Part shown: in pieces, positions 9,023 through 40,826 of the stretch
Layout of the letters: every line of letters starts with the position of its first letter
Numbering within the stretch: position 1 is the first letter of the stretch
Assembly (NCBI RefSeq): GCF_021028995.1
Contig: NZ_JAJJZG010000023.1
Coordinates: 1-40,826 of the forward strand
Length of the DNA stretch: 40,826 nt
Direction: 5' to 3'
Origin: Halobacterium sp. KA-4
Lineage (GTDB): Archaea > Halobacteriota > Halobacteria > Halobacteriales > Halobacteriaceae
Made by a program: the position numbers and the translations under genes
Notes under the pieces: model-generated
The model's input: only the letters and a program-made list of their open reading frames with translations
The model's database searches: none
Told to the model about the DNA's origin: nothing

Positions 9023-12000
9023 ATGTCCGGACACCACACCATCTGGCTCGTCGGCTGCTCGACCTGCGACGAGCTCTGGCTCACCCCCGTCGGCCGCGAC
9101 ACCACGGACTGCCCACGCTGCGGGACCACCTACAGGACCCGTACGCTCCGAAAGTTCGCCGAGGACACGGACCGCGACGCACTCATCGAGAAGCGCACCC
9201 AGATCCTCTCGAGCCGGAGCGACCCACGTGCTCGCGAGCAGTACCGCGCCACCGTCGACGACGCCCTCGCCGACTACGACTCGCTCGAGGACGCCGCCCG
9301 GTCGTCACTCATCGACGAAGAGGCAATCCTCCGCCATATCGGCGCCGACGATGCCGCCGATCTCCTCTACACCAACGAGGAATCGACGACGCCCACACCC
9401 TCCTCGCGCTCGGACGCGGAGGAACCCGATTCCGAGCACGCGAACCCCACCTTCGACCCGCTTGGAACTCCACTCCCCGTGGCCGCAACCCCCGGTATTT
9501 CGCGTATCCCGCCAGATCAGGATGGCCAGACGGATCTCTCGACGACGGTCGTCCACCGTGGGTTGCAGCCCCAGATGCGGCGCTGGATTCCCACCCTCCT
9601 GGAGGAACTTCTCCCGACACTCACGGCTGCCGTTGCTCAGTGGACAGTCGACCAGGACGGCGTCGACCTTGAGGCCGCCAGCACAGAAGCGATTGCGACG
9701 GCGCTGCTCGACCAGCTTGAGATCGACCCAGGGACCGTTGAGATCGATGGTGACCGCCAGGCGCCGGTCGAAGTGCGTGCGTGGGTCCGTGACCTCGTGG
9801 CGTTCACCGTCCGTGCCGTCGAGGAAGACGTCACTGTTGACGACGCCCCAGGATCGCTGACGCGGATCGGGACCGGCCGTGGATTGCTCAACGCAGGCCG
9901 TGCAGCGCTCCGAGCTGGCCCGGTCGCACTGCTCGATGCTCTTGAGGTGACGCCACAGGTCGCTGCGACGCTCAACGAAGGCGAATGGGTTGGCACACGC
10001 AGCGAGACACGCGCCCGCTCTCTCGGCGCGCTGGACAGCCTCTCGGACGCGCTAGACATCCAGTTGGTGTTCTCGACACCACGCATGGAATCCATTCTCG
10101 TCGACGAGCACGCTGACTGGACGAGCCGGCATCTCAATCTTACCGAGGACGCAGATACCTCCCACCCGTCTGGAACCAACACAGACAGCGATGAGGACGC
10201 GGCACTCGCGAGTCAGGCGTGGGACATCATCCGTGACCGCGAGTGGTCGGGCACCGGCTACACGCGCATCCTCGGCAATCTCTCGGCCGCTGGCGCAACC
10301 CGCGGCGACCTTGCGGCCGACGACGACGTCGGCCTCTCCGAGGGCAGCATCTACGCGTACGTCCAGGAGCTTGTGGACGCCGGCTTCGTCACCATTGACG
10401 GCACCACCACCCCGAGTAAGGTTGTCCTAACGGAGCTTGGCGCCTCTCTCGCCGGTTATGTCGATTCTTCGGGTGCTGTCCAGTCTCCCGTTCAGGCGAG
10501 TCTTACTCAGTCCCCCAACCGCGATACAAGAGAGTGTATTCCCCAAAACCGGCACGACCGGCCCGGGGACGGCCTGGCCGCCGTCGGCCCCCGCACCACC
10601 GCCGCCGAGGCGTTCCTCGCGGATACCGGCGACGCTGAGGAGGACGGCTATACGCGGTTCCTCGGCCGGTACAGCGGCGGTGAAGCCCCACGCGAGATCG
10701 AACCCGCGACGCTCCACCATCAGCTGCAGTCCGCTCGCCGCACTGAGGGCGTAACCGTCGTAGAGGATGCGAACCTCCGGGAATTCGACGATGGCCGTGT
10801 CTCGTACCTGTCCGGCGGGCCGTCGTTCGACGATGATGTCGCAGTGGTTCTGGAGTGGGGGAATCCCCTGGCGACGTTGGCACGTCTCGTTGATTCCTTA
10901 CTCGGCAGTCGGGCGTGGAGTAAGATTCTCCGCCGCAGCCGGCTAGGGAGTGAACTCGAGAATCTGTGGGGCGGCGCCGATGCGTTCGACGCGGCGCTCG
11001 CGGATGTCGCGAAGTTCGCGGCCCAGATGGGATGGATGAGCAGCGGCGAGGAGAACAACTACCACAGCTACCGTGACCGTTTGGAGGGCGTTCGGTGTTC
11101 GCTACTCGAGGAGGTCGGGAAGTTCGATGAGCTCGATTACGACCAGCGCTCGGCACTGGTCTCGAAGCTCATCGGGTTGTTCACGACGGCGACGGCGCTG
11201 TACGACGCGGCCGGCTACGACCTCACCGTCCACCTCCGGGTGCCGGACGCGACGCAGTTACGTCGCGACGACGGCCGATACGGCCGCTTCCTCGGGTTCT
11301 TCCGGAGTGTCGTGGCGAAACAGGGCGTCTACCGTGGCCCCGAGGGCGTTCACTCCATCTATCGGATGCAGCGCGAGCGCCGCGAGGAGAAGCTGAAGAG
11401 CCGGCTGGGCTACGAGATTGATCCCGGAGACCCGCGGGCGGACCTGACGTGCTCGTGGGTGGTCGCCGTCGACGACGCCAGCGACGATGTCGTTGATGAC
11501 GTCGAGGCCGCCCTCACCGCCGAAGACGACCGGGTTCGGGACCGCATTCAGGACGGCACCGAGGACGCCGCCGTCATGGACGTTCCTGTCCGGAGGGGGA
11601 ACTCGGTGGCGGCAACCCGGGAGATCGTGGAGGGGTTCGCGATAAAGAAGGGCTTCGGCGCCGGTGCACGCCAAGACCTCGACCGGCTCGCGAACGTGGT
11701 CCACGCCGCACTCGGGACCTCCACTCGGGGGCCGTCGCCGTTTGACGTCGCGGCGGCGATGCAGGCCCTCGAGTCCCGGGACCGCGTCGGCGACGAGCTC
11801 TCGGTCAGCGCGCTTGCGACTGGCGTCGCGACGCTCCCGGCGAATCGCTTGCTGCCGTCGCTGTTCGAGGGCGAGCGGCCGAAACTTGCGATGCAGAAGA
11901 TGGTGAAGCTGCTGCTGGCGAGCGACACCCCGGTCTCACGCCAGGAGCTTGTCGACGTCTCATCGGAGAATTCGGTCGACCGGTACCTGCAGCGGTTGCG

Positions 12001-12424
12001 GGCGTTGGATATCGTCGAGCGTGTCGGGCGGGGTGAGTACCGTGCGTACTTGGAGCCGTGGTGGACACCAGCCAGCGATACCGACGAGCCGTACAACGAG
12101 GACCACGAAAGCACCATCGAGGAGGTTTCACTCGGCACGGTGCGGTGGCGAGACGTCCTGTATGGCGCTGCGGATCGGTTGGACCCGGACCTGCCAGAAG
12201 ACGTTGACGCCGTGAACGTCCACGACCCGGTGTTCTGGACGGACACGGACTTCGAGCGTGTCATCGAGGCAGTTCCGGGGATCGCGCAGTACGAACATTT
12301 CCTGCGGGTGTACTTCGAGGATGTCGAAGAGGACGACGAGGAGGTGGTGGCGAGAATCGGGTCACCACCACCCGGCGCGTCACCCGGACAGCAGACGCTT
12401 ATGGGAGCGCTGGCTGGCGATTAG
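9023..12424 (+). CDS. Large zinc-finger/winged-helix protein, DUF5817-like N terminus
   Basis: This 1133-aa protein begins with a zinc ribbon, WLVGCSTCDELWL...DTTDCPRCGTTYRTRTLRKFAED (Cys12, 15, 30, 33), resembling the haloarchaeal DUF5817 domain as I recall it. A disordered acidic linker follows. A helical domain and a first winged-helix region (about residues 392-466, AGATRGDLAADDDVGLSEGSIYAYVQELVDAGFVTI) come next. The centre is an ordered helical block with SGEENNYHSYRDRLEGVRCSLLEEV and a strand-rich part near TVHLRVPDATQLRR. A second winged helix lies near 956-1013 (LLASDTPVSRQELVDVSSENSVDRYLQRLRALDIV). No ATPase or nuclease motif is obvious. It is probably a DNA-binding protein of plasmids or viruses. 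Direct repeats and the type IIG RM gene follow it in the same direction. Confidence 0.8.
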   Translation: MSGHHTIWLVGCSTCDELWLTPVGRDTTDCPRCGTTYRTRTLRKFAEDTDRDALIEKRTQILSSRSDPRAREQYRATVDDALADYDSLEDAARSSLIDEEAILRHIGADDAADLLYTNEESTTPTPSSRSDAEEPDSEHANPTFDPLGTPLPVAATPGISRIPPDQDGQTDLSTTVVHRGLQPQMRRWIPTLLEELLPTLTAAVAQWTVDQDGVDLEAASTEAIATALLDQLEIDPGTVEIDGDRQAPVEVRAWVRDLVAFTVRAVEEDVTVDDAPGSLTRIGTGRGLLNAGRAALRAGPVALLDALEVTPQVAATLNEGEWVGTRSETRARSLGALDSLSDALDIQLVFSTPRMESILVDEHADWTSRHLNLTEDADTSHPSGTNTDSDEDAALASQAWDIIRDREWSGTGYTRILGNLSAAGATRGDLAADDDVGLSEGSIYAYVQELVDAGFVTIDGTTTPSKVVLTELGASLAGYVDSSGAVQSPVQASLTQSPNRDTRECIPQNRHDRPGDGLAAVGPRTTAAEAFLADTGDAEEDGYTRFLGRYSGGEAPREIEPATLHHQLQSARRTEGVTVVEDANLREFDDGRVSYLSGGPSFDDDVAVVLEWGNPLATLARLVDSLLGSRAWSKILRRSRLGSELENLWGGADAFDAALADVAKFAAQMGWMSSGEENNYHSYRDRLEGVRCSLLEEVGKFDELDYDQRSALVSKLIGLFTTATALYDAAGYDLTVHLRVPDATQLRRDDGRYGRFLGFFRSVVAKQGVYRGPEGVHSIYRMQRERREEKLKSRLGYEIDPGDPRADLTCSWVVAVDDASDDVVDDVEAALTAEDDRVRDRIQDGTEDAAVMDVPVRRGNSVAATREIVEGFAIKKGFGAGARQDLDRLANVVHAALGTSTRGPSPFDVAAAMQALESRDRVGDELSVSALATGVATLPANRLLPSLFEGERPKLAMQKMVKLLLASDTPVSRQELVDVSSENSVDRYLQRLRALDIVERVGRGEYRAYLEPWWTPASDTDEPYNEDHESTIEEVSLGTVRWRDVLYGAADRLDPDLPEDVDAVNVHDPVFWTDTDFERVIEAVPGIAQYEHFLRVYFEDVEEDDEEVVARIGSPPPGASPGQQTLMGALAGD

Positions 12425-12482
12425 CTGGTTGGGGGACGTGAGTAAGACGCAGTACGAATCTGGTTGGGGGATGCGAGTAAGA
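12425..12482 (+). repeat. Two 23-bp direct repeats between the 1133-aa gene and the RM gene
   Basis: Copies at 12425-12447 and 12460-12482 share 21 of 23 bases (CTGGTTGGGGGA...GAGTAAGA), with a 35-bp period. They fall directly after the stop codon of the upstream gene and 48 nt before the RM start. They may be binding sites in the RM promoter region, or a slippage duplication. The G5 run is shared by both. Confidence 0.5.
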
Positions 12483-12529
12483 GGCACAGGGATGCAACCT
12501 TTTTGACGCCCGACTGTTTCGAGACGGAT

Positions 12530-15500
12530 ATGTCTGATACGTCTGCGATTCTCGATGCCCTCCACGGAATCGCATCACGCCTCGGTGCGGATATGAGCGA
12601 GAAAGACGTGGAGAACGCGTTCCTCAACGAGAACTTCTATACGCTCCTCGGCTACGATGGTGCGGGCTACGACCTCCGAAGTGAATGGACACTCCCCGAC
12701 GACCGACGCCCTGACTACGTCACTCTCGACAACAACGAGTCCGTCACCGTAGTCTACGAGTTCAAGACCACCGACCGCGACCTCGACCCTCACGAAGACC
12801 AACTATTCCACTACGTCGACCAGCTCAAAGCCGACTACGGCGTCCTCACCAACGGTGACGAACTCCGCCTCTACAGCCGTGACGGCCATTCCCGGATGAA
12901 ACGTGTCTTCCTCGAAGACGCGACGAATAGTGATGCCGCCGACCTCGAAGCGGCACTCCAGAAACCTGAGTGGGACATTACCGATCCGGAAAGTGTCACG
13001 GCATTCCTCGACCGCCTTGATGAAGTGGAACTCGACGGCGAACTCGGACAGGAACACTTCTTCGAGACATTCCGCTTGGAGGAGAACAGTCCGTTTGCCG
13101 ACCTCGTGACAGCGATGATGGACTTGCTCGTGGAACTCCGCGACGAGCAGGAGGCGAAGTTCGTGGAAGGCGCGTACGATTTCTGGGAGGCCAGCTACGC
13201 CAGCGAACCCGACGAGACACCCGACTCGTGGGAACCCTTCATCGACGGCCAGCAGTCCCTCCGCGACTTCATGTTCTGCTTGGAATCCGGCCACGCACTC
13301 CTCGCCCGGCTCCTCTTGGCGAAGGCCACAGATGACCACGACTTCTTCCCCAACAAGACGGGGCTCCGCCGATACTTCGATGAACTTGGTGGATTCAGTG
13401 GTTCCATCGAGCTGGACGCCTACCCGATTGCGGCGAACGGGATGATCGAGGATATGCGCAACCACCTCGTTCAGAGCCTTTTCGAGGACGATATTTTCAT
13501 CTGGTGGACGGACGGCTATGGCAAAGAAACCGCCAGCCAGCACAAGAATCCGTACAGTCGGTTCGAGTCTGTCGCGAAAGAGGGGAGTGATGTGAGCCGT
13601 GTCAGCCCGGCGACCCGCGAACGGTTCAGTCGCGCCATCGCGCACGTCTCCTTTGCCGTGCTGAAGTTCGACTTCGCGGAGGTTCAGGGCGACCCGTTGG
13701 GCGACCTCTACCAGCGATACTTCGACCCGGAGACAAGGAAGGCCCTCGGGGAGTTCTACACGCCACAGCCGGTCATCGACTACATCATGGATGGCGTCGA
13801 TTACGATGTTGGCGTCTCTCAGGAGCGTATCATCGACCCATCCTGTGGTTCCGGTACGTTCCTCGTGGAAGCCGTCAACCGCTACCTCGACGACGTCCGC
13901 CGGTACAACGACGACCCGGATTGGTCGGAACACCTCACCGAACTGTGTACGACACCCCACATCGTCGGGCTGGACATCCATCCGTTCGCGGTGTTGATGG
14001 CACAGATTCGCTTCATGGTCGCCATCCTCCCCGAGTACAAGCAGGCGAAACAGGAGGACGAGGACTTCACGATTCGCCGGCTCCCGATCTTCCGAACAGA
14101 CTCCTTGCGGAATGAGCGGGAACTAACGGGTATCGACCTCGGGGATGAGGGCCAGACGCAGATGACGTTAGACTCGATCACGGAGGACAACCAAGACGTG
14201 AAGATTCCCGTACCCCTCCCCATCGAAGTCGATGAGGACGAGGTGGCCGATTCAGAATTGGAGGACGGCTTCCTCGTTCAGCGGGTGCGGATGCCGAAGT
14301 ACGACACGGCCAAGGTGAACGCTGGCGTGCGGAACTTCGGGGAGTATTATGCGGCGTTACAGGGCGTTCTGGACGTGGTGAAGTTCCACATGCAGGAAGG
14401 CTGGTGGGAGTACGGCGGCGGCCTCGAAGAAGGTATCCACCGCTACACGACCCGTGAATACGATGGGGTCGAGGACTTCTTCGAGCCGTACGTTAACGAC
14501 GTTCTCGCGACGGTGCGTTACCTGCGGGAAGAACACGGCGACGGACGACTGTTCAAGATGTTCGAGGACAGCGTTCTCGCGCTCGTCGTCAAGAACTATA
14601 TGGACTACCAGTACGTCGTCGGGAACCCGCCCTACGTTCGCATCCAGAACCTTCCCGACCAGCAGAAATCAGTTCTCGATGAACTGTACGAGTCCACGAC
14701 GGGCAACTACGACCTCTACTGTCCGTTCTACGAGCGAGGGCTTGACTGGCTGGAAGAAGGGACGGGGAAACTCGGCTATATCACGCCGAATCAGTTCATG
14801 GTGACTGACTACGGGGATGGCCTTCGTCGTGTACTCCGCAGAGAAGCGGCTCTCGATGAGGTGTACGACTTCCGGGATTCCGGCGTGTTCAAGGACGCAA
14901 CGAACTACCCCGCCATCGTAATTGCGGAAGACGAGCCGGACGAAGAGGCCCGAGAGGAGAACCAGATTCGATGCGTGCGTGTGAAAGCAAACGTCGATGA
15001 GGACACCGGGCGAGCGTTAGACGAGGAAATCGTCGCCGCCGTGCGCGACCACCGTAACGAACCCGGATACTCTGACGAGTTCATCGACGTGTTCGACTTC
15101 CCACAAGGGGAACTTGGCGACGGCTACTGGTCGATGATGCCGCCGGAAGAGTTGGAGGTATTCCGGAAACTCGAAACTAATGCAGAATACCGAATTGAGG
15201 AGATAACCGACTCTGTTTCCCACGGTACTCAGACAAGCGCGAATACGGTGTATGTCGTCGATGTTCTGGATGCTGGCCGGATAGAATCAGAGGATGAAGG
15301 GGATGTTGTAACGATTGTTCCGTCAGGAGAATCGAAGGAGTACAAGATCGAGACGGATTTACTTCGCCCGTGGCTGAGCGGGAGAGACGTTGAACGATGG
15401 CGTGCAGATTGGTCTGGACAGCACGTTGTACTCCCTTACCGTATTGAAGAAGGCCCGGCGGGGGATTTGACCGCTGAATTGTATCCAGAGGAGGAGATGA

Positions 15501-16411
15501 AAGAGGAGTTCCCCCACGCGTGGGACTTCTTCAAGGCTCACGAAGAAAAACTCCGAGGTCGAGAGGGGGGACGATGGGCTGAAAGCGACGAGTGGTGGGA
15601 GTTTGGACGCCCACAGAATTTGGAGAAGTTCGAGATTCCCAAAATCATCTTCGCTCATCTGAGTAGCGAAGCTACGTTCATGCTGGATGAGGTGGGAACG
15701 TGGTACTACAAGACTGCGTACTCTGCGTTACTCTCTGAGGACTACCTTCCGTTGACCGAAGTGGTGGCCTGTCAGTTGAACTCGAAGGCCCTCGATTTCT
15801 ACTTCAAACACATCACGACTGTCAAAGCAGGAGGGTACTACGAATATCGCTCACAGTACATCGAGAAACTCCCTTGCGTGACAACAGAAGAAAACGAGGC
15901 GTTCGATGTACTCAGAGATAACGCCGGACAGATTACGGATACCATCGACCTGAATAGTCGAACTGCTCGTTTCCCGGAAGCCTACCTCGGGGACTTCGAC
16001 GGCGATCTCGGGTACATCGACTACGAGTGGCAGACCCGACGGTATCCGGTGAACGCCGACATCCAAGAGAAGACGGATGGCCGTTTCGCTGTGACGGCTG
16101 GCCGCTCCGACGAGATTACCGACCCGTTGATGGACAGGGGCGACCGCGAGGAGCAGAAACTTCGAGCGCAGTACGTTCTCGCCGCCGTTGACGGTCGGAG
16201 TATGAAGAAGGGGGAGGAGCAGATGATTCCGATTCCCCAGTCTCGCGAGGGGGTGGAAGAACTCATTAAGGCGTTGGAATCCGACCGGCAGACAGTCGAG
16301 GAAACTAGTATCGAAGACCTCGAAGCGGAGATCGACCAAACGGTGTACGAGATGTTCGACCTAACCGACGAAGAGCGGGAGGTTATCGAGGACTATCTCG
16401 AAGTGTTCTAA
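12530..16411 (+). CDS. Type IIG-like restriction-modification enzyme
   Basis: This 1293-aa single-chain enzyme starts at the ATG at 12530; a longer frame from 12464 adds unlikely residues. The N-terminal nuclease is PD-(D/E)XK: RRPDYVTL (Asp62) then VVYEFKTTD (Glu77-x-Lys79), followed by YGVLTNGDELRLYS, as in HsdR-N/type IIG nucleases. A helical connector leads to an adenine-methyltransferase core with motif I DPSCGSGTF (Asp436) and motif IV NPPY (699-702), preceded by the LGEFYTPQPVIDYIMD element. The C-terminal third (PWLSGRDVERW...KIIFAHLSSEATFMLDE...YRSQYIEKLP) looks like a TaqI-type target-recognition domain. It should methylate and cleave one DNA sequence, protecting host DNA and restricting phage or plasmid DNA. 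The frame and all key motifs are intact. Its stop abuts the convergent gene. Confidence 0.93.
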   Translation: MSDTSAILDALHGIASRLGADMSEKDVENAFLNENFYTLLGYDGAGYDLRSEWTLPDDRRPDYVTLDNNESVTVVYEFKTTDRDLDPHEDQLFHYVDQLKADYGVLTNGDELRLYSRDGHSRMKRVFLEDATNSDAADLEAALQKPEWDITDPESVTAFLDRLDEVELDGELGQEHFFETFRLEENSPFADLVTAMMDLLVELRDEQEAKFVEGAYDFWEASYASEPDETPDSWEPFIDGQQSLRDFMFCLESGHALLARLLLAKATDDHDFFPNKTGLRRYFDELGGFSGSIELDAYPIAANGMIEDMRNHLVQSLFEDDIFIWWTDGYGKETASQHKNPYSRFESVAKEGSDVSRVSPATRERFSRAIAHVSFAVLKFDFAEVQGDPLGDLYQRYFDPETRKALGEFYTPQPVIDYIMDGVDYDVGVSQERIIDPSCGSGTFLVEAVNRYLDDVRRYNDDPDWSEHLTELCTTPHIVGLDIHPFAVLMAQIRFMVAILPEYKQAKQEDEDFTIRRLPIFRTDSLRNERELTGIDLGDEGQTQMTLDSITEDNQDVKIPVPLPIEVDEDEVADSELEDGFLVQRVRMPKYDTAKVNAGVRNFGEYYAALQGVLDVVKFHMQEGWWEYGGGLEEGIHRYTTREYDGVEDFFEPYVNDVLATVRYLREEHGDGRLFKMFEDSVLALVVKNYMDYQYVVGNPPYVRIQNLPDQQKSVLDELYESTTGNYDLYCPFYERGLDWLEEGTGKLGYITPNQFMVTDYGDGLRRVLRREAALDEVYDFRDSGVFKDATNYPAIVIAEDEPDEEAREENQIRCVRVKANVDEDTGRALDEEIVAAVRDHRNEPGYSDEFIDVFDFPQGELGDGYWSMMPPEELEVFRKLETNAEYRIEEITDSVSHGTQTSANTVYVVDVLDAGRIESEDEGDVVTIVPSGESKEYKIETDLLRPWLSGRDVERWRADWSGQHVVLPYRIEEGPAGDLTAELYPEEEMKEEFPHAWDFFKAHEEKLRGREGGRWAESDEWWEFGRPQNLEKFEIPKIIFAHLSSEATFMLDEVGTWYYKTAYSALLSEDYLPLTEVVACQLNSKALDFYFKHITTVKAGGYYEYRSQYIEKLPCVTTEENEAFDVLRDNAGQITDTIDLNSRTARFPEAYLGDFDGDLGYIDYEWQTRRYPVNADIQEKTDGRFAVTAGRSDEITDPLMDRGDREEQKLRAQYVLAAVDGRSMKKGEEQMIPIPQSREGVEELIKALESDRQTVEETSIEDLEAEIDQTVYEMFDLTDEEREVIEDYLEVF

Positions 16412-31683: not shown

Positions 31684-33078
31684 ATGACAGACAATGAAGA
31701 ACCAGGTGGTGGAGGTGATTCGTCTATCACGGACCAGCAGCTGGATGATTTCGATACAAACAGAGAGAGCCGTTCTACTTCTGAAATCTCGTCGGCCTCG
31801 GAGGAAATCCAACGACAAGACTCGGACGATCCGGCAAATGACCCGTTGTTCGTTCGGGAGGGCGATGAAGACGGTTCTTCAACTCATATCTGGGCAGATC
31901 GAGATTTACTCTCAATTGGAACCGTTCCTGGCCCTGATCGCATCGTCGGTCGTGACACGGAAATCCAATCGGTAGCTGGAGAAATCCGACACCTCATTCA
32001 CGGATCACAACCAAACCACGTCGTCATCTATGGCGAAACCGGGACTGGAAAATCACTTGTCAGCCGTCACGTGTCCGACCGTCTCGTTGATACTGCCACG
32101 GCACGTAACGTTCCTGCTGCTAGCGTCTACGTTGAGTGCAAGAAGAATAATACCGAAACACGAGTGGCCCGAACAATCGCTCGTGCGCTAAGCGACAAAT
32201 CTGATTCTGATATAGATATCCCTCGTATCGGTTTAGGTTCCGCCGAGTACTACGATTACGCCTACGACATTATCGACGAGTACTACGATGGGCTCATTGT
32301 CATCCTTGACGAGATCGACATGGTTGATAACGCTGAGGGGCTCCTCCATGAACTCTCGCGGGCTCGAGAAGCTGGTCACACCGATGCATATATCGGGATC
32401 ATTGCTATCAGCAACGATATCGATTTCGGACAAAAACTCAACGCACGCGTTCAGAGTTCGATGCGGACGACGGACTTCGTCTTTGAACCATACCAAAGCG
32501 ATCAAATCGAGCAGATCCTGGAATATCGACGAGACGCGTTCCATGATGGTGTCGTTCAAGACGGCGTCATAACCGAGACTGCCGACCGGTCGGCGGATGA
32601 ACACGGTGATGCGAGAAAGGCAGTTGACGTCCTACGGATTGCTGGTGACATCGCTGACGACGCCGGTGCCGAGGTCGTTAGTCCAGAACATGTCGACAAA
32701 GCAGTCAAGCGTGCAGAGGTTAATCGAGTCAAGGAAACGATCGAGAGTACCTCACCACAGTCTAAACTCGTTCTCTACACTCTCGGCCGCTTGACTGGCT
32801 CGAATAATCGCCGCTTCCGCACCTCTGGTATCTACAGTCAATACGAGACGACCTGTGGTGACGTCGGTGTTGATCCTCTCTCATATGATCGAGTGAGCCA
32901 GATTCTCAGCACGTTCGCGCTAATGGGGATCTCTGAGTCTCACCAGATCGGTGGTGGACACAAGCAGGGTGTCTATCTGGAACACCAGCTTATCAAGGAC
33001 AAAGATGTAGTGATGAAGGCAGTTGTAGAGAGCGATGAACGGCTTTCAGAACTTCACAACGGAACCTACGAGATTTAA
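31684..33078 (+). CDS. orc1/cdc6: Orc1/Cdc6-type replication initiator
   Basis: This 464-aa AAA+ protein has a long acidic disordered N terminus (about 60 residues, with GGGGDSS and SEISSASEEI). The fold begins near GPDRIVGRDTEIQSV. Walker A GETGTGKS is at 117-124 and Walker B VILDEID near 206-212, with sensor 1 IIAISNDIDF, sensor 2 GDARKAVDVLRIAGDIA and the C-terminal winged helix (TSGIYSQYETTCGDVGVDPLSYDRVSQILSTFALMGISE). These initiators bind ORB repeats and load the MCM helicase. At least six ORB-like boxes precede it and two follow, so it is likely the cognate initiator for this origin. The start is the ATG at 31684, 36 nt after box 6. Confidence 0.95.
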   Translation: MTDNEEPGGGGDSSITDQQLDDFDTNRESRSTSEISSASEEIQRQDSDDPANDPLFVREGDEDGSSTHIWADRDLLSIGTVPGPDRIVGRDTEIQSVAGEIRHLIHGSQPNHVVIYGETGTGKSLVSRHVSDRLVDTATARNVPAASVYVECKKNNTETRVARTIARALSDKSDSDIDIPRIGLGSAEYYDYAYDIIDEYYDGLIVILDEIDMVDNAEGLLHELSRAREAGHTDAYIGIIAISNDIDFGQKLNARVQSSMRTTDFVFEPYQSDQIEQILEYRRDAFHDGVVQDGVITETADRSADEHGDARKAVDVLRIAGDIADDAGAEVVSPEHVDKAVKRAEVNRVKETIESTSPQSKLVLYTLGRLTGSNNRRFRTSGIYSQYETTCGDVGVDPLSYDRVSQILSTFALMGISESHQIGGGHKQGVYLEHQLIKDKDVVMKAVVESDERLSELHNGTYEI

Positions 33079-37332: not shown

Positions 37333-38180
37333 ATTTATCCTTCAAAACTAGAATACAAGTATTTTGTGTGTATGTGGTCTATTATCCAATACTACCATAT
37401 TTTTAGAACCACTTTTTAAGCACCTTACCAAGTATTTCCAATTTTCGTTGAAACGACCTGGTAAGGTTGAGTGCCTCACTATTGGCAGTCTCTACCTACT
37501 TTCGGGCGTGGATTCTGTAGTTGGTCGGCTTTGCACGCGCGTGGAGGACGTATCAATCGGTCAAACAGCAGTAAGGGGTCATCTACTGGCATATCTCTCG
37601 AATAAGCGGAATGAGAAGGAGATGATTACAAGAGCGAATCCCGTGTTTCGTCTTCAATTGATACACGACCCCACAACCACGACGAATGAACGCCACCAGC
37701 ACAGTCGATGGTTCTCCGTACGACTTCGGGGGCGATGCACGGCGCAGTCCGCACAGAAGAATGCCGAGCCCGTACTCCAGCAGCCACCATCCAGTGTTCG
37801 ACACGATGCGGCTGGCGTGTACTAGTCGCGAGCGATAAGATCGAACCCGCCGAATCTGAGCTGGCAGTTGCACCGCCAGTTCTGGCAGTACACCGTTCCC
37901 ACAACGCTCCCGTACGCACGAGAACCGAACACAGTAACGACTCTTCAACGACGACGGACGTGAGAAACCTCAACGACACCCCGATTCCACAACCTGCACA
38001 CAACGAACGACAATCGCCCACGAACACGCCCACGACCGAATGCGAGTTCTCGCCAGTCCATCTCCAGAGCTCACCCGGCACTATCTCTGGCTGTCTCGCT
38101 CGTAACTATCGGCAACCAACCCCCACCGCAATCGCCGAATCTACCAGATTCAATATGGTTTCCGTGGTGTTTTCGAGGGC
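37333..38180. other. Long region with no confident gene
   Basis: About 850 nt. Several frames over 100 codons exist on both strands (for example 37364-37825 plus and 37626-38081 minus), but they overlap one another, have neutral or basic Cys/Arg-rich composition unlike the acidic proteins elsewhere, and have no motif. It may be degraded DNA. It leads into the repeat array. Confidence 0.4.
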
Positions 38181-38650
38181 TAATTACAAGACGGGAGTAC
38201 GATTCAACCATGCAACACTGAACGGCATAATGACAGGATGGCGGTCGAATTCAGGGTGGTTATATTGACACACAAATCGACGCAGATCTAGACATGCAAA
38301 ATCACGTAATGACAGGATGGCAGTGCAATTAGGGGGGGTGAGTACTGAAACCAATAAATACAGGATGGCGTCCGAATTCATGGGGGTGACACTGAACGCT
38401 ATGGCACCTCCGCGACCAGCAACTACCATCGTATAATCACCAGATAGCGGTCGGACTCGGGGGGCTGACACTGAATACTGTAATGACAATACGGCGCCCG
38501 ATTTCATGGGGGTGGCACTGACACCCTGAATTACGCGAAAATCCACTGTCATTACAGGACGGCAGTGGAATTCCGGGCATCCATACGTACTTATATATTC
38601 TATCCGATAACTCGCATAATGACAGGACGGCGGCGCCATTACAGGGGGAT
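38181..38650 (+). repeat. Array of about eight G-tailed direct repeats (origin-like)
   Basis: Copies start near 38181 (weak), 38228, 38307, 38355, 38433, 38481, 38549 and 38617. The consensus is about 33 bp: TAATGACAGGATGGCGGTC, then GAATTCATGGGGGTG, and several copies continue with ACACTGA. Spacing alternates near 47-48 and 68-79 bp. The second half TCCGAATTCATGGGGGTG resembles the ORB box TCCGAATCAGGGGGGTG at 31 kb. This suggests another Orc-bound origin or satellite of the same initiator. No initiator gene adjoins it in this window. Confidence 0.6.
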
Positions 38651-38779
38651 TGTCATGAAATTACCACCCCCGAAATCGAGTACACACGTTCAGCCACGCA
38701 ACGAGAGGTCTTTAGAGGTGCTATACGCTAATCTCTGCTTGTGTAACATGTTCAGCGGAATTCACACAATTAGGGTTCA

Positions 38780-40090
38780 AGGGGGTGAAGTTTGAGGTGG
38801 GAGTCGGATATCGGATGAGTCAGGCGGAGCCGGGGGATGGGCGTAGCGAGTGGGGGAGATGGGTGCGTGGCGAGGGAGTGGACTCCCAGATTGTTGACAG
38901 TGGGGAACCCTGGGTGATGCGATTGGTTATGGAGGTGGAGTTGGGGATCGGGATTGGTGGTGGAGTTGACGATTCGTTATAGTGGTGGGGTTGGATTGAG
39001 ATTGGTGGAGTTGGACGTTGGTTACTGGCGAGGATGAAGGAGGTGGATTGGCGAAGGTGGAGTGGGGGTGTTAGCGGCGGGGTGTGTCTTGGCGACGCAG
39101 GTTCGAGGATTTGACTGACGGTGGGCGATAGACGATGGGCGACTGACGATTGGCGATGGACGGTAGGCGATGAGCGACTGATGGTGGACGGTGGGCGATA
39201 GACGATTGGCGAGGTGGATTGGGAGCGACTGCTTGGCGAGTGACGTGGTCGGTAGTCGAGTAGCGAGTAGCGAGTGGCAATGGTGGAGGGGTGGCTTGGA
39301 GTAGTGGCGGCGGAGCGACGACGACGTGGTCGGCAAGCCAAGGAGAGGAGACTGTGGATGGGACGACGAGTTGGCGGGTGGAGTGGAAGCAAGGGGGTTG
39401 GGGGAAGGGCGAGAAGCAAGACGGGAAGCGAGGTGTCGGCGGGGTGGAAAGCGAGACGAGATGCGAGATGCGAGGTGGGGGTGAGGGGAGGGCGGTGGGC
39501 GGAGAGTGACAGAATTGGTGGAGCGGCAAGTGGTGGGGCGGCAGCGACAACGACAGCGATGGGTTCGGGGCGGGCGCCACTGGAGATGGAGACGGCGGCG
39601 ATACACTAGGCGTGGGGCGACAGCGAGAGTGCGAGAATGAGAGGTGGGTGTTGAGGGTGACGGCAGCGATGACAGCGACAGTGAGAGTGGGAGCGAGAGT
39701 GAGGGTGAGAGTGAGAGTGAGAGCGAGGGGTGGGGCCGTCGACGATCAGGCACAGGTACGAATACGAGATCCAGGGGGAGGGGGGATGGGAGTGTGACAG
39801 GAACGGTGGTGTCGATAGCAAGTGCCAGCTGGAGACCATACATAGGAGCGGGAAGCAACGACAACACAACATAGGCTGCGAACGAAGGGAACTGGAGACC
39901 AGACCGAACAGGGACGAACAGGAAGGGAGGGGAGGATTGGGCAGCGGGAGAATAGGAAGCGGGAGGGGCGAACAGAGAGGACGGTGGGTGGAGGAAGAAC
40001 AGGGAAGGAGGGTGGTGGGTTGGGCGAGGAAGGAGAAGGTCGAACAAGGAGCAGGTGGAGCGAACAGGACGACGTCAAGCGAGAGAGGTT
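38780..40090. repeat. Extreme G/purine-biased low-complexity block
   Basis: Counting the 60 bases at 39361-39420 gives 33 G, 15 A, 6 C and 6 T; at 39901-39960 it gives 28 G, 21 A, 8 C and 3 T. Degenerate short repeats occur, for example GGCGATGGACG-like units around 39110-39240 and GAGAGTGAGAGT runs around 39680-39740. The long minus-strand open frames (up to 341 codons, Ser/Pro/Leu-rich) come from the bias and are not credible genes. Possible roles are structural or replication-linked. Confidence 0.6.
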
Positions 40091-40123
40091 GAGTGAGCGA
40101 GAGGAGTAGGGGTGGGTGTGCAA

Positions 40124-40323
40124 GCAGACGTCCAACGCAAGGCGCGGGGAGCGAAAGAGCGCGGGGGCATTGGTGGATGGAGAAAGAAGGGAGTGGGCGG
40201 GAGATGAATTCTCGATGGGTTGCCGCCGGCGGTTCAACCGGGGCGGAGCCAGGAAGCTCGTCGGGGCGGAGCCAGGTGTCAGCGCGGCGGCGGGGAGTAG
40301 CCGGGGTCGGCAGACGTCCAACG
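40124..40323. repeat. Short direct repeats beside the transposase
   Basis: GCAGACGTCCAACG occurs at 40124-40137 and 40310-40323, and CGGGGCGGAGCCAGG at 40239-40253 and 40262-40276. They are in a G-rich stretch between the biased block and the IS, possibly remnants of tandem duplications. Confidence 0.4.
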
Positions 40324-40407
40324 AGAATGGGATCAGTCTTGGAGCGAAACAGGGGAGCAGAGCTCGACGCAGCCAGCGGGATTGTCAACCCGAGCATCCG
40401 TCTTTAG

Positions 40408-40824
40408 TTAAGCCTCACACCTCGGTTGTGTAGTGGTAGCGAGCGTCTCTTGTAAGATTGGTCGTTGCTTGTGGATCTTTTGAGCGTCTTCGATCAGCCG
40501 GTCGAGCAGCGGCGGTGGTGAATAGCCGAGGAACTCACCGAGTTCGTGGAGAATGAGCTGGGCGTGCGACCGGAAGGTCGCCGCCCAGCGCTCTGTCGGA
40601 AACACAAGCTCATCATCCGCCTGCTCAGTGACTAGATCCAACAGATCGCGGCTTACAAGCAGCGACAGCAGCGCTGCGTACAATAAGATCCTCACCACAT
40701 GTTCGTCACTCGTGTCGAACTCGTCCAATTCGTACTGCGTCTTCAGCTCCCGGAACAGCAACTCAACTTCCCACCGACAGCGGTAGATCTCCGCTAAATC
40801 CGCCGGAAAGAACTCCTTCCTCGC
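40408..40824 (-). CDS. IS4-family transposase, C-terminal part
   Basis: The frame enters from the right edge and ends with a TAA at 40408-40410. It contains AEIYRCRWEVELLFRELKTQYELDEFDTSDEHVVRILLYAALLSLLVSRDLL. The Tyr-x2-Arg-x3-Glu-x6-Lys pattern is the YREK box of IS4-family transposases (ISH8-like in haloarchaea), which includes the catalytic Glu. The tail is helical. The N-terminal part lies outside the window, so its intactness is unknown, and the element's left inverted repeat was not identified. Confidence 0.85.
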   Translation of the reverse strand, partial: ARKEFFPADLAEIYRCRWEVELLFRELKTQYELDEFDTSDEHVVRILLYAALLSLLVSRDLLDLVTEQADDELVFPTERWAATFRSHAQLILHELGEFLGYSPPPLLDRLIEDAQKIHKQRPILQETLATTTQPRCEA

Positions 40825-40826
40825 TA

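Follow-up and report, generated by a model that had tools for sequence, protein, structure and literature searches.

The strand-asymmetric region near the end of the analyzed contig probably belongs to a long non-coding RNA gene of haloarchaeal plasmids and integrated elements, with a predicted length of about 1.56 kb here and 0.57–1.6 kb in the family. The whole stretch of DNA that was analyzed (40,826 nt, in the following called the window) lies on contig C15 of a haloarchaeal draft genome of 3.34 Mb in 55 contigs. An initial annotation had described 1.3 kb of extreme strand asymmetry at 38780–40090. It had overlooked the conserved, folded domains at both ends, the array of eight upstream sites at fixed positions and the gene neighborhood; taken together, these favor an RNA gene.

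Composition and extent of the element

The segment at 38780–40090 contains 629 G, 177 C, 305 A and 200 T, corresponding to a GC skew of +0.56 and a purine content of 0.71, and its most skewed 60-mer holds 35 G against 3 C. Stretches of the same length elsewhere in the window (n = 748) have a mean skew of 0.010 (sd 0.057, range −0.114 to +0.143), so the asymmetry is indeed extreme. Among 4164 stretches of equal length from other haloarchaeal loci, which overlap and are partly redundant, the 25 with the highest skew all came from members of the same RNA-like family. The degenerate tandem units mentioned in the initial annotation were seen as weak runs of 14/28-nt and 6/18/24-nt units, restricted to short patches. 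G-quadruplexes had also been suggested; with three strict G4 motifs against 2.2 ± 1.3 expected from dinucleotide shuffles there is no excess of them.

The proposed R-loops fared better. The energy of the sense RNA:DNA hybrid minus that of the DNA duplex is −0.23 kcal/mol/bp in the segment, −0.05 ± 0.03 kcal/mol/bp elsewhere in the window and −0.16 to −0.26 kcal/mol/bp in nine other family members. Relative to duplex DNA, the sense hybrid with the template is thus favored by about 0.18 kcal/mol/bp over the rest of the window. The R-loop idea survives since a purine-rich transcript would pair unusually stably with its template; this potential is real and conserved, though largely due to composition.

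The true unit is wider than first noted. The array starts at 38181, and the RNA-like unit extends from 38758 to about 40318, which agrees with the earlier statement that the segment directly follows a repeat array. Homology to a paralogue on contig C5 of the same genome reaches 40394, and insertion sequence (IS) begins at 40395 (Table 1). In p117 of Halorubrum BOL3-1 an IS4-family transposase region matches the IS at 94%, and an identical stretch of 26 bp recurs close to the ends of contigs C13, C25, C26 and C37 of the genome to which the window belongs. The IS parts the RNA of the window from whatever came after; at this place the C5 paralogue has a ribbon-helix-helix (RHH) gene. The window copy consists of array and RNA without protein genes, the full locus being located on C5, and could be a stranded copy. 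The A/C-rich segment preceding the array aligns poorly in other genera and matches the G-rich interior over some short stretches in inverted orientation.

Table 1. Features of the element and its surroundings, numbered by position in the window.
Feature	Position	Strand	Evidence or remark
A/C-rich segment before array	37662–38204	+	BLAST: common to C5 paralogues (91%, 78%) and Halobacterium plasmids
Array, eight direct units	38181–38660	+	Consensus TAATtACaAGACGG..., G-run often at end
Promoter/operator-like region	38688–38757	+	GTTCAGC direct repeats at 38688 and 38750 around dyad; function putative
5' structured domain of predicted RNA	38758–38917	+	R1 covariance-model match of 140 bits; covariation
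5'-domain helix 1	38772–38778 with 38905–38911	+	
5'-domain helix 3	38799–38804 with 38882–38887	+	
5'-domain hairpin	38805–38807/38811–38813	+	
GGCGGAGCC motif in 5' domain	38823–38831	+	
Interior: purine/G-rich, weakly repetitive, non-coding	38918–40215	+	Other members likewise skewed and purine-rich
3' structured domain	40216–40318	+	Length and sequence conserved
3' closing helix	TTGCCG 40220–40225 with CGGCAG 40308–40313	+	
3' inner pairing	GGC 40228–40230 with GCC 40300–40302	+	
Two GGCGGAGCC motifs in 3' domain	40242–40250, 40265–40273	+	
GGCGGGGAGTAGCC in 3' domain	40289–40302	+	
IS4-family insertion sequence	40395–40826	−	Adjoins element, runs to contig end

Distribution of the family

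Two further copies are located in tandem on contig C5. Homologues on related plasmids do exist: BLAST revealed them in Halobacterium, Haloarcula, Halorubrum and Halopiger, and the element is unannotated in all of these plasmids. The 5' block was turned into a covariance model (R1), which matched in 25 of 391 haloarchaeal genomes, representing 10 of 86 genera. One genome (G335) was added by locus scan, bringing the family to 26 of the 391; locus scans also added plasmid pHS2 of Halobacterium salinarum R1 (80 bits with the model) and Haloferax larsenii. The predicted RNA occupies about 77474–76150 of the pHS2 record, on the minus strand, and about 14356–15319 of NZ_CP089470.1 in Halobacterium noricense JCM 15102. 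Independent homologues in many genera share the same ends, which argues against an assembly artefact. The view of the region as an expanding satellite is contradicted by these conserved ends, which are unique sequence, and by the confinement of repeats to short patches.

In the aligned copies a 5' block of about 160 nt is common to all and a 3' block of about 100 nt is present in most, while the interior drifts and stays purine-rich. As a rule the 3' motif lies 0.93–1.2 kb from the 5' start. This distance reaches 1.46–1.57 kb in three members (the window copy, its sister on C5 and one more), and two distant members (L078, L079) have about 0.53–0.55 kb. The 3' motif gave no match in members L011, L013, L061, L076, L077 and L086. 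Loci L075–L079 are distant, shorter versions which have kept the ATPase and RHH neighbors described below and could help to define a minimal RNA. Array and RNA are repeated in tandem on a single replicon in L063 (two copies), L014 (1130 and 8208) and L075 (rc 5460, 6912), and some copies lie in contigs of 2.2–4.5 Mb. Tandem copies in one replicon and the patchy distribution argue that the element is not essential to its hosts.

On viral contigs the 5' motif gave no match, and no relatives of the neighboring ATPase or nuclease were found there. A 3'-motif match on one viral contig (L107) is due to chance, as the sequence is not purine-rich and has no R1 match; a Thermoplasmatales MAG (L022), matched by chance by a 19-base pattern, was dropped as well. 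When the window was scanned with Rfam 15 at E up to 10, the only matches were two weak ones to snoRNA models, both in the IS region. Eight homologous loci gave no match, and no family's gathering threshold was reached.

Predicted conserved folding of the ends

We compared the window copy with its 88% identical C5 paralogue. Of 20 indels, 15 are not multiples of three, and substitutions are spread evenly over the three codon phases (63/73/61). Since both disregard the reading frame, the segment is not a protein gene on either strand. The initial statement that there is no credible gene therefore holds for proteins. Annotated inside one of the Halorubrum ezzemoulense RNA copies (L014:8601–9581) is a 'methyl-accepting chemotaxis protein' (WP_276425006.1), most probably the product of a spurious gene call. 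In H. salinarum R1 the copy contains two small hypothetical proteins (L103:14214–14450 and 14844–14981).

The 5' domain is predicted to be closed by a long-range helix that covaries. In its fold a helix AGGGUUC/GAACCCU surrounds GGUAGU/ACUACC and a small hairpin. The second helix covaries, reading GGGAGU/ACUCCC in the window and GAUAGU/ACUAUC in Halorubrum, and the window itself shows a compensatory U-A to G-C change in this domain. A sequence-only MAFFT alignment (A5) contained four pairs changed on both sides, a number reached in 3 of 500 shuffles. With a model-fitted alignment including distant members nine two-sided pairs were found, which was reached in none of 500 shuffles; these shuffle controls ignore phylogeny. 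Sliding the helix partners against each other on the model-fitted alignment abolished pairing. Within the close family helix 1 shows no variation over much of its length, so the covariation rests on few pairs and on distant members. Non-Watson-Crick exceptions comprise 19 G-U versus 5 A-C, and the far commoner G-U suggests an RNA read from the plus strand.

In the closing helix of the 3' domain (UUGCCG/CGGCAG) every change keeps pairing via G-U; two-sided covariation was looked for in this domain and none was found. Motifs of the type GGCGGAGCC/GGCGGGGCC are repeated in this domain, and one of them is shared with the 5' domain. In the interior, alifold z-scores for the Halorubrum group indicated no conserved structure beyond shuffles. 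Compensatory changes above controls, the general test for a structured RNA, thus point to a fold in the 5' domain only.

Organization of the upstream array

The eight units of the window start at 38181, 38228, 38307, 38355, 38434, 38481, 38549 and 38617, with spacings of 47/79/48/79/47/68/68 bp. They are located at about −577, −530, −451, −403, −324, −277, −209 and −141 from the RNA start, and all have the same orientation. Near-identical unit positions were observed in most of the 36 loci scanned. At the scan threshold of two mismatches, which leaves some units of many loci undetected, 4–9 units per locus were counted as a rule, two in one locus and none in two (L069, L071).

Spacings fall into the classes 47/48, 67–69 and 79/80 bp, and 89/90 bp in distant members, all near (n+0.5) × 10.5 bp. 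Over 195 spacings the mean phase is about one half, with R = 0.81. In the distant members 89/90 replaces 79/80, so that the two subfamily-variable intervals differ by one helical turn. Helical phasing of the array is suggestive rather than proven, since there are just four independent spacing classes. Between array and RNA lies a dyad of the type TTTAGAG-N3-CTCTAAA, which reads TTTAGAG-N3-CTATACG in the window (38711–38727) and TTTAGAGACTCTCTAAA in the best member. In almost every locus it is placed at −46 to −48 relative to the RNA start, and in the alignments two direct repeats flank it.

Gene neighborhood and alternative explanations

The common gene order on the RNA strand is ATPase gene, small acidic protein, RNA, RHH-like protein, DUF7344 HTH protein, 230-aa protein and nuclease-like protein. 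The ATPase (about 1200 aa) was found in 15 loci, the small acidic protein in 12, the RHH-like protein in 16, and the DUF7344 HTH, 230-aa and nuclease-like proteins in 13–14 loci. The last of these is a putative PD-(D/E)XK nuclease, assigned by eye. It keeps a G..WLEYQL...E.DVVA...QCK pattern, and the assignment rests on this pattern, since single-sequence AlphaFold modeling gave a pLDDT of 40. TRAM-domain (putative RNA-binding) genes occur within several kb of RNA copies on several plasmids, at L011 (3134–3574), L014 (10742–11179) and L015 (3034–3465). PADLOC returned no convincing defense-system match. Two large adjacent genes of the window at 9023–16411, encoding a 1133-aa DUF5817-domain protein and a 1315-aa Eco57I/TaqI_C-type methylase with an HSDR_N-like domain, form a possible restriction or defense locus. 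The window also carries Orc1/Cdc6 and ParA-like genes (31684–33078 and 533–1381, respectively), and the contig is probably a piece of a plasmid or megaplasmid.

In eight of the loci analyzed an orc1/cdc6 gene is present within about 9 kb. This proximity would fit an R-loop replication origin or copy-number element resembling ColE1 RNA II, in which the purine-rich body pairs with its template and opens the DNA while the eight sites serve as iterons for an initiator. The orientation of the skew, with G on the non-template strand, is conserved and suits this idea, as do a sense-hybrid stability far outside that of the rest of the window and eight phased, iteron-like sites, some with G-runs; haloarchaeal ORBs likewise end in G-strings (PMC3528665, PMC3936714). 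However, the units are direct instead of inverted and do not adjoin orc/cdc6, the orc1/cdc6 gene of the window lying 5.7 kb upstream of the unit. Replicons with two copies (C5, L014, L075) and copies in the contigs of megabase size also speak against it, and the genes closely associated with the element are those of the ATPase and the RHH protein, not that of an initiator. We therefore consider an origin unlikely.

In complete loci the RHH gene directly follows the RNA on the same strand. It occurs in 14 of 391 genomes, all of which are RNA-positive when G335 is counted (hypergeometric P 5e-19, phylogeny ignored). Profile scores of the protein are below cut-off (RHH_1 E 0.04–0.05, RHH_5 E 0.0013), and its alignment (A11) shows the typical RHH pattern. 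RHH and nuclease profiles gave no match against PDB sequences. The element might also be part of the RHH mRNA, as a structured 5' leader of great length which regulates the RHH gene, with no free RNA being formed: in 16 loci the RHH start lies shortly downstream of the 3' end of the RNA, and the gene is found only together with the RNA. Several RNA-positive loci in which no RHH gene was found (e.g. L009, L011) do not fit, and a leader of 0.6–1.6 kb would to our knowledge be extraordinary for haloarchaea. This makes a leader quite unlikely.

Members of the ATPase family are present in 204 genomes. The close subfamily (≥65% identity, full length) is restricted to 12 genomes, and all 12 are RNA-positive; fragments also occur in three genomes without R1 match (G068, G008, G166). 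The scanned loci of 11 more distant homologues contained no R1 match, and more distant homologues had no strongly purine-rich tract downstream. The ATPase has the Walker motifs TGSGKT and IIEESA, its similarity to HerA (DUF87) is weak and runs through distant homologues, and its profile gave no match against the PDB. With an RHH gene on one side and the gene of a VirD4/HerA-like ATPase on the other, the element has surroundings that recall those of oriT in some conjugative plasmids. The element could thus act as an origin of DNA transfer or packaging where the RHH protein binds the phased sites, the T4CP-like ATPase is recruited and the folds act in single-stranded DNA. That MOB-suite typed all 144 plasmids with an ATPase homologue as non-mobilizable would leave room for such a system. 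Single changes in the helices, however, prefer G-U wobbles, which are more typical of RNA, the dyad sits at a promoter-like distance, and family scans covering part of the neighboring proteins recognized no relaxase. On balance an oriT-like origin is very unlikely. The weak tandem repeats and length differences could also be those of a sequence without function of its own, whether low-complexity or satellite DNA driven by composition or the remains of a gene; this is hardly credible given that ends, covariation, array geometry and gene order are conserved across many genera.

Proposed function

Returning to the long non-coding RNA, we expect a discrete plus-sense transcript which would start near 38750, within about 30 nt of GAATTCACACAATTAGGG, and end near CGGCAGA (40314). 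The phased sites may assemble a nucleoprotein complex that controls the RNA. Its folded ends with the repeated GGCGGAGCC motif could be docking sites for proteins, and the purine-rich middle might stay single-stranded or form an R-loop on its own template. RNA, RHH protein and HerA/VirD4-like ATPase would then jointly move or maintain the DNA of the element; this joint role is inferred from gene neighborhood only. Our tentative, if plausible, proposal is a new RNA-containing DNA-handling system of haloarchaeal mobile elements: the phased eight-site array would drive a purine-rich RNA of kilobase length, and this RNA, folded at its ends, would cooperate with the HerA/VirD4-like pump and the RHH protein, perhaps via an R-loop, in transfer or maintenance of the element.

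Long structured RNAs of archaea are little explored, and the family is absent from Rfam. In plasmids of tractable haloarchaea such as H. salinarum R1 its members are not annotated, and some are covered by spurious gene calls. If it is transcribed, the family would be a class of RNAs at the kilobase scale with an unusual plan, folded at the ends and drifting in the purine-rich middle, and tied to a fixed eight-site array and a DNA-pump ATPase. It would also offer an inroad into the upkeep and spread of haloarchaeal plasmids without recognized relaxases, and into the question whether archaea use R-loops on purpose.

Comparison with known systems

ColE1 RNA II is plasmid-borne and has a folded 5' part and a G-rich, hybrid-forming part. 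The haloarchaeal RNA is likewise plasmid-borne, with a folded 5' part and a G-rich part predicted to form a hybrid, but is sometimes present in two copies per replicon and mostly resides on large replicons, of which at least one, pHS2, carries orc1/cdc6 genes with predicted origins (PMC3528665, Table 1). In some conjugative plasmids T4CP and RHH accessory genes flank oriT, similar to the RHH and T4CP-like ATPase genes around the non-coding, site-rich region described here; in contrast, the haloarchaeal loci have no recognized relaxase, and their base-pair pattern favors RNA. The pRNA of phi29 is the RNA part of a DNA-packaging motor, and by analogy the haloarchaeal RNA may be a partner of a DNA pump of the HerA/FtsK class. 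It is however far longer, no sequence relation was found and no capsid genes were recognized.

The array shares repeated sites, some with a terminal G-run, with haloarchaeal orc/cdc6 origins. In known haloarchaeal origins inverted ORBs flank an AT-rich element next to orc/cdc6 (PMC3528665, PMC3936714), whereas the array has eight direct units with fixed half-turn spacing and no adjacent orc/cdc6. As the RNA is not ROOL by the Rfam test and the array lacks inverted ORBs and an adjacent orc/cdc6 gene, the family and its predicted architecture appear new; the part of the literature that was searched contained no description of the element.

Large mobile-element RNAs such as ROOL seem to be the nearest analogues. 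ROOL, GOLLD and OLE, large ornate RNAs of bacteria, are long non-coding RNAs, too, and ROOL and GOLLD occur on mobile elements like the predicted haloarchaeal RNA. The latter differs from them in being archaeal, in lacking an Rfam match and in its gene neighbors, and in its predicted architecture of two structured ends, an unstructured purine-rich middle and a fixed upstream array of eight sites. Deletion of an lncRNA of the Lactobacillus salivarius megaplasmid, counted among ROOL as cited by a Nature 2025 paper, lowered the megaplasmid copy number (PMC5643018, PMC12286853).
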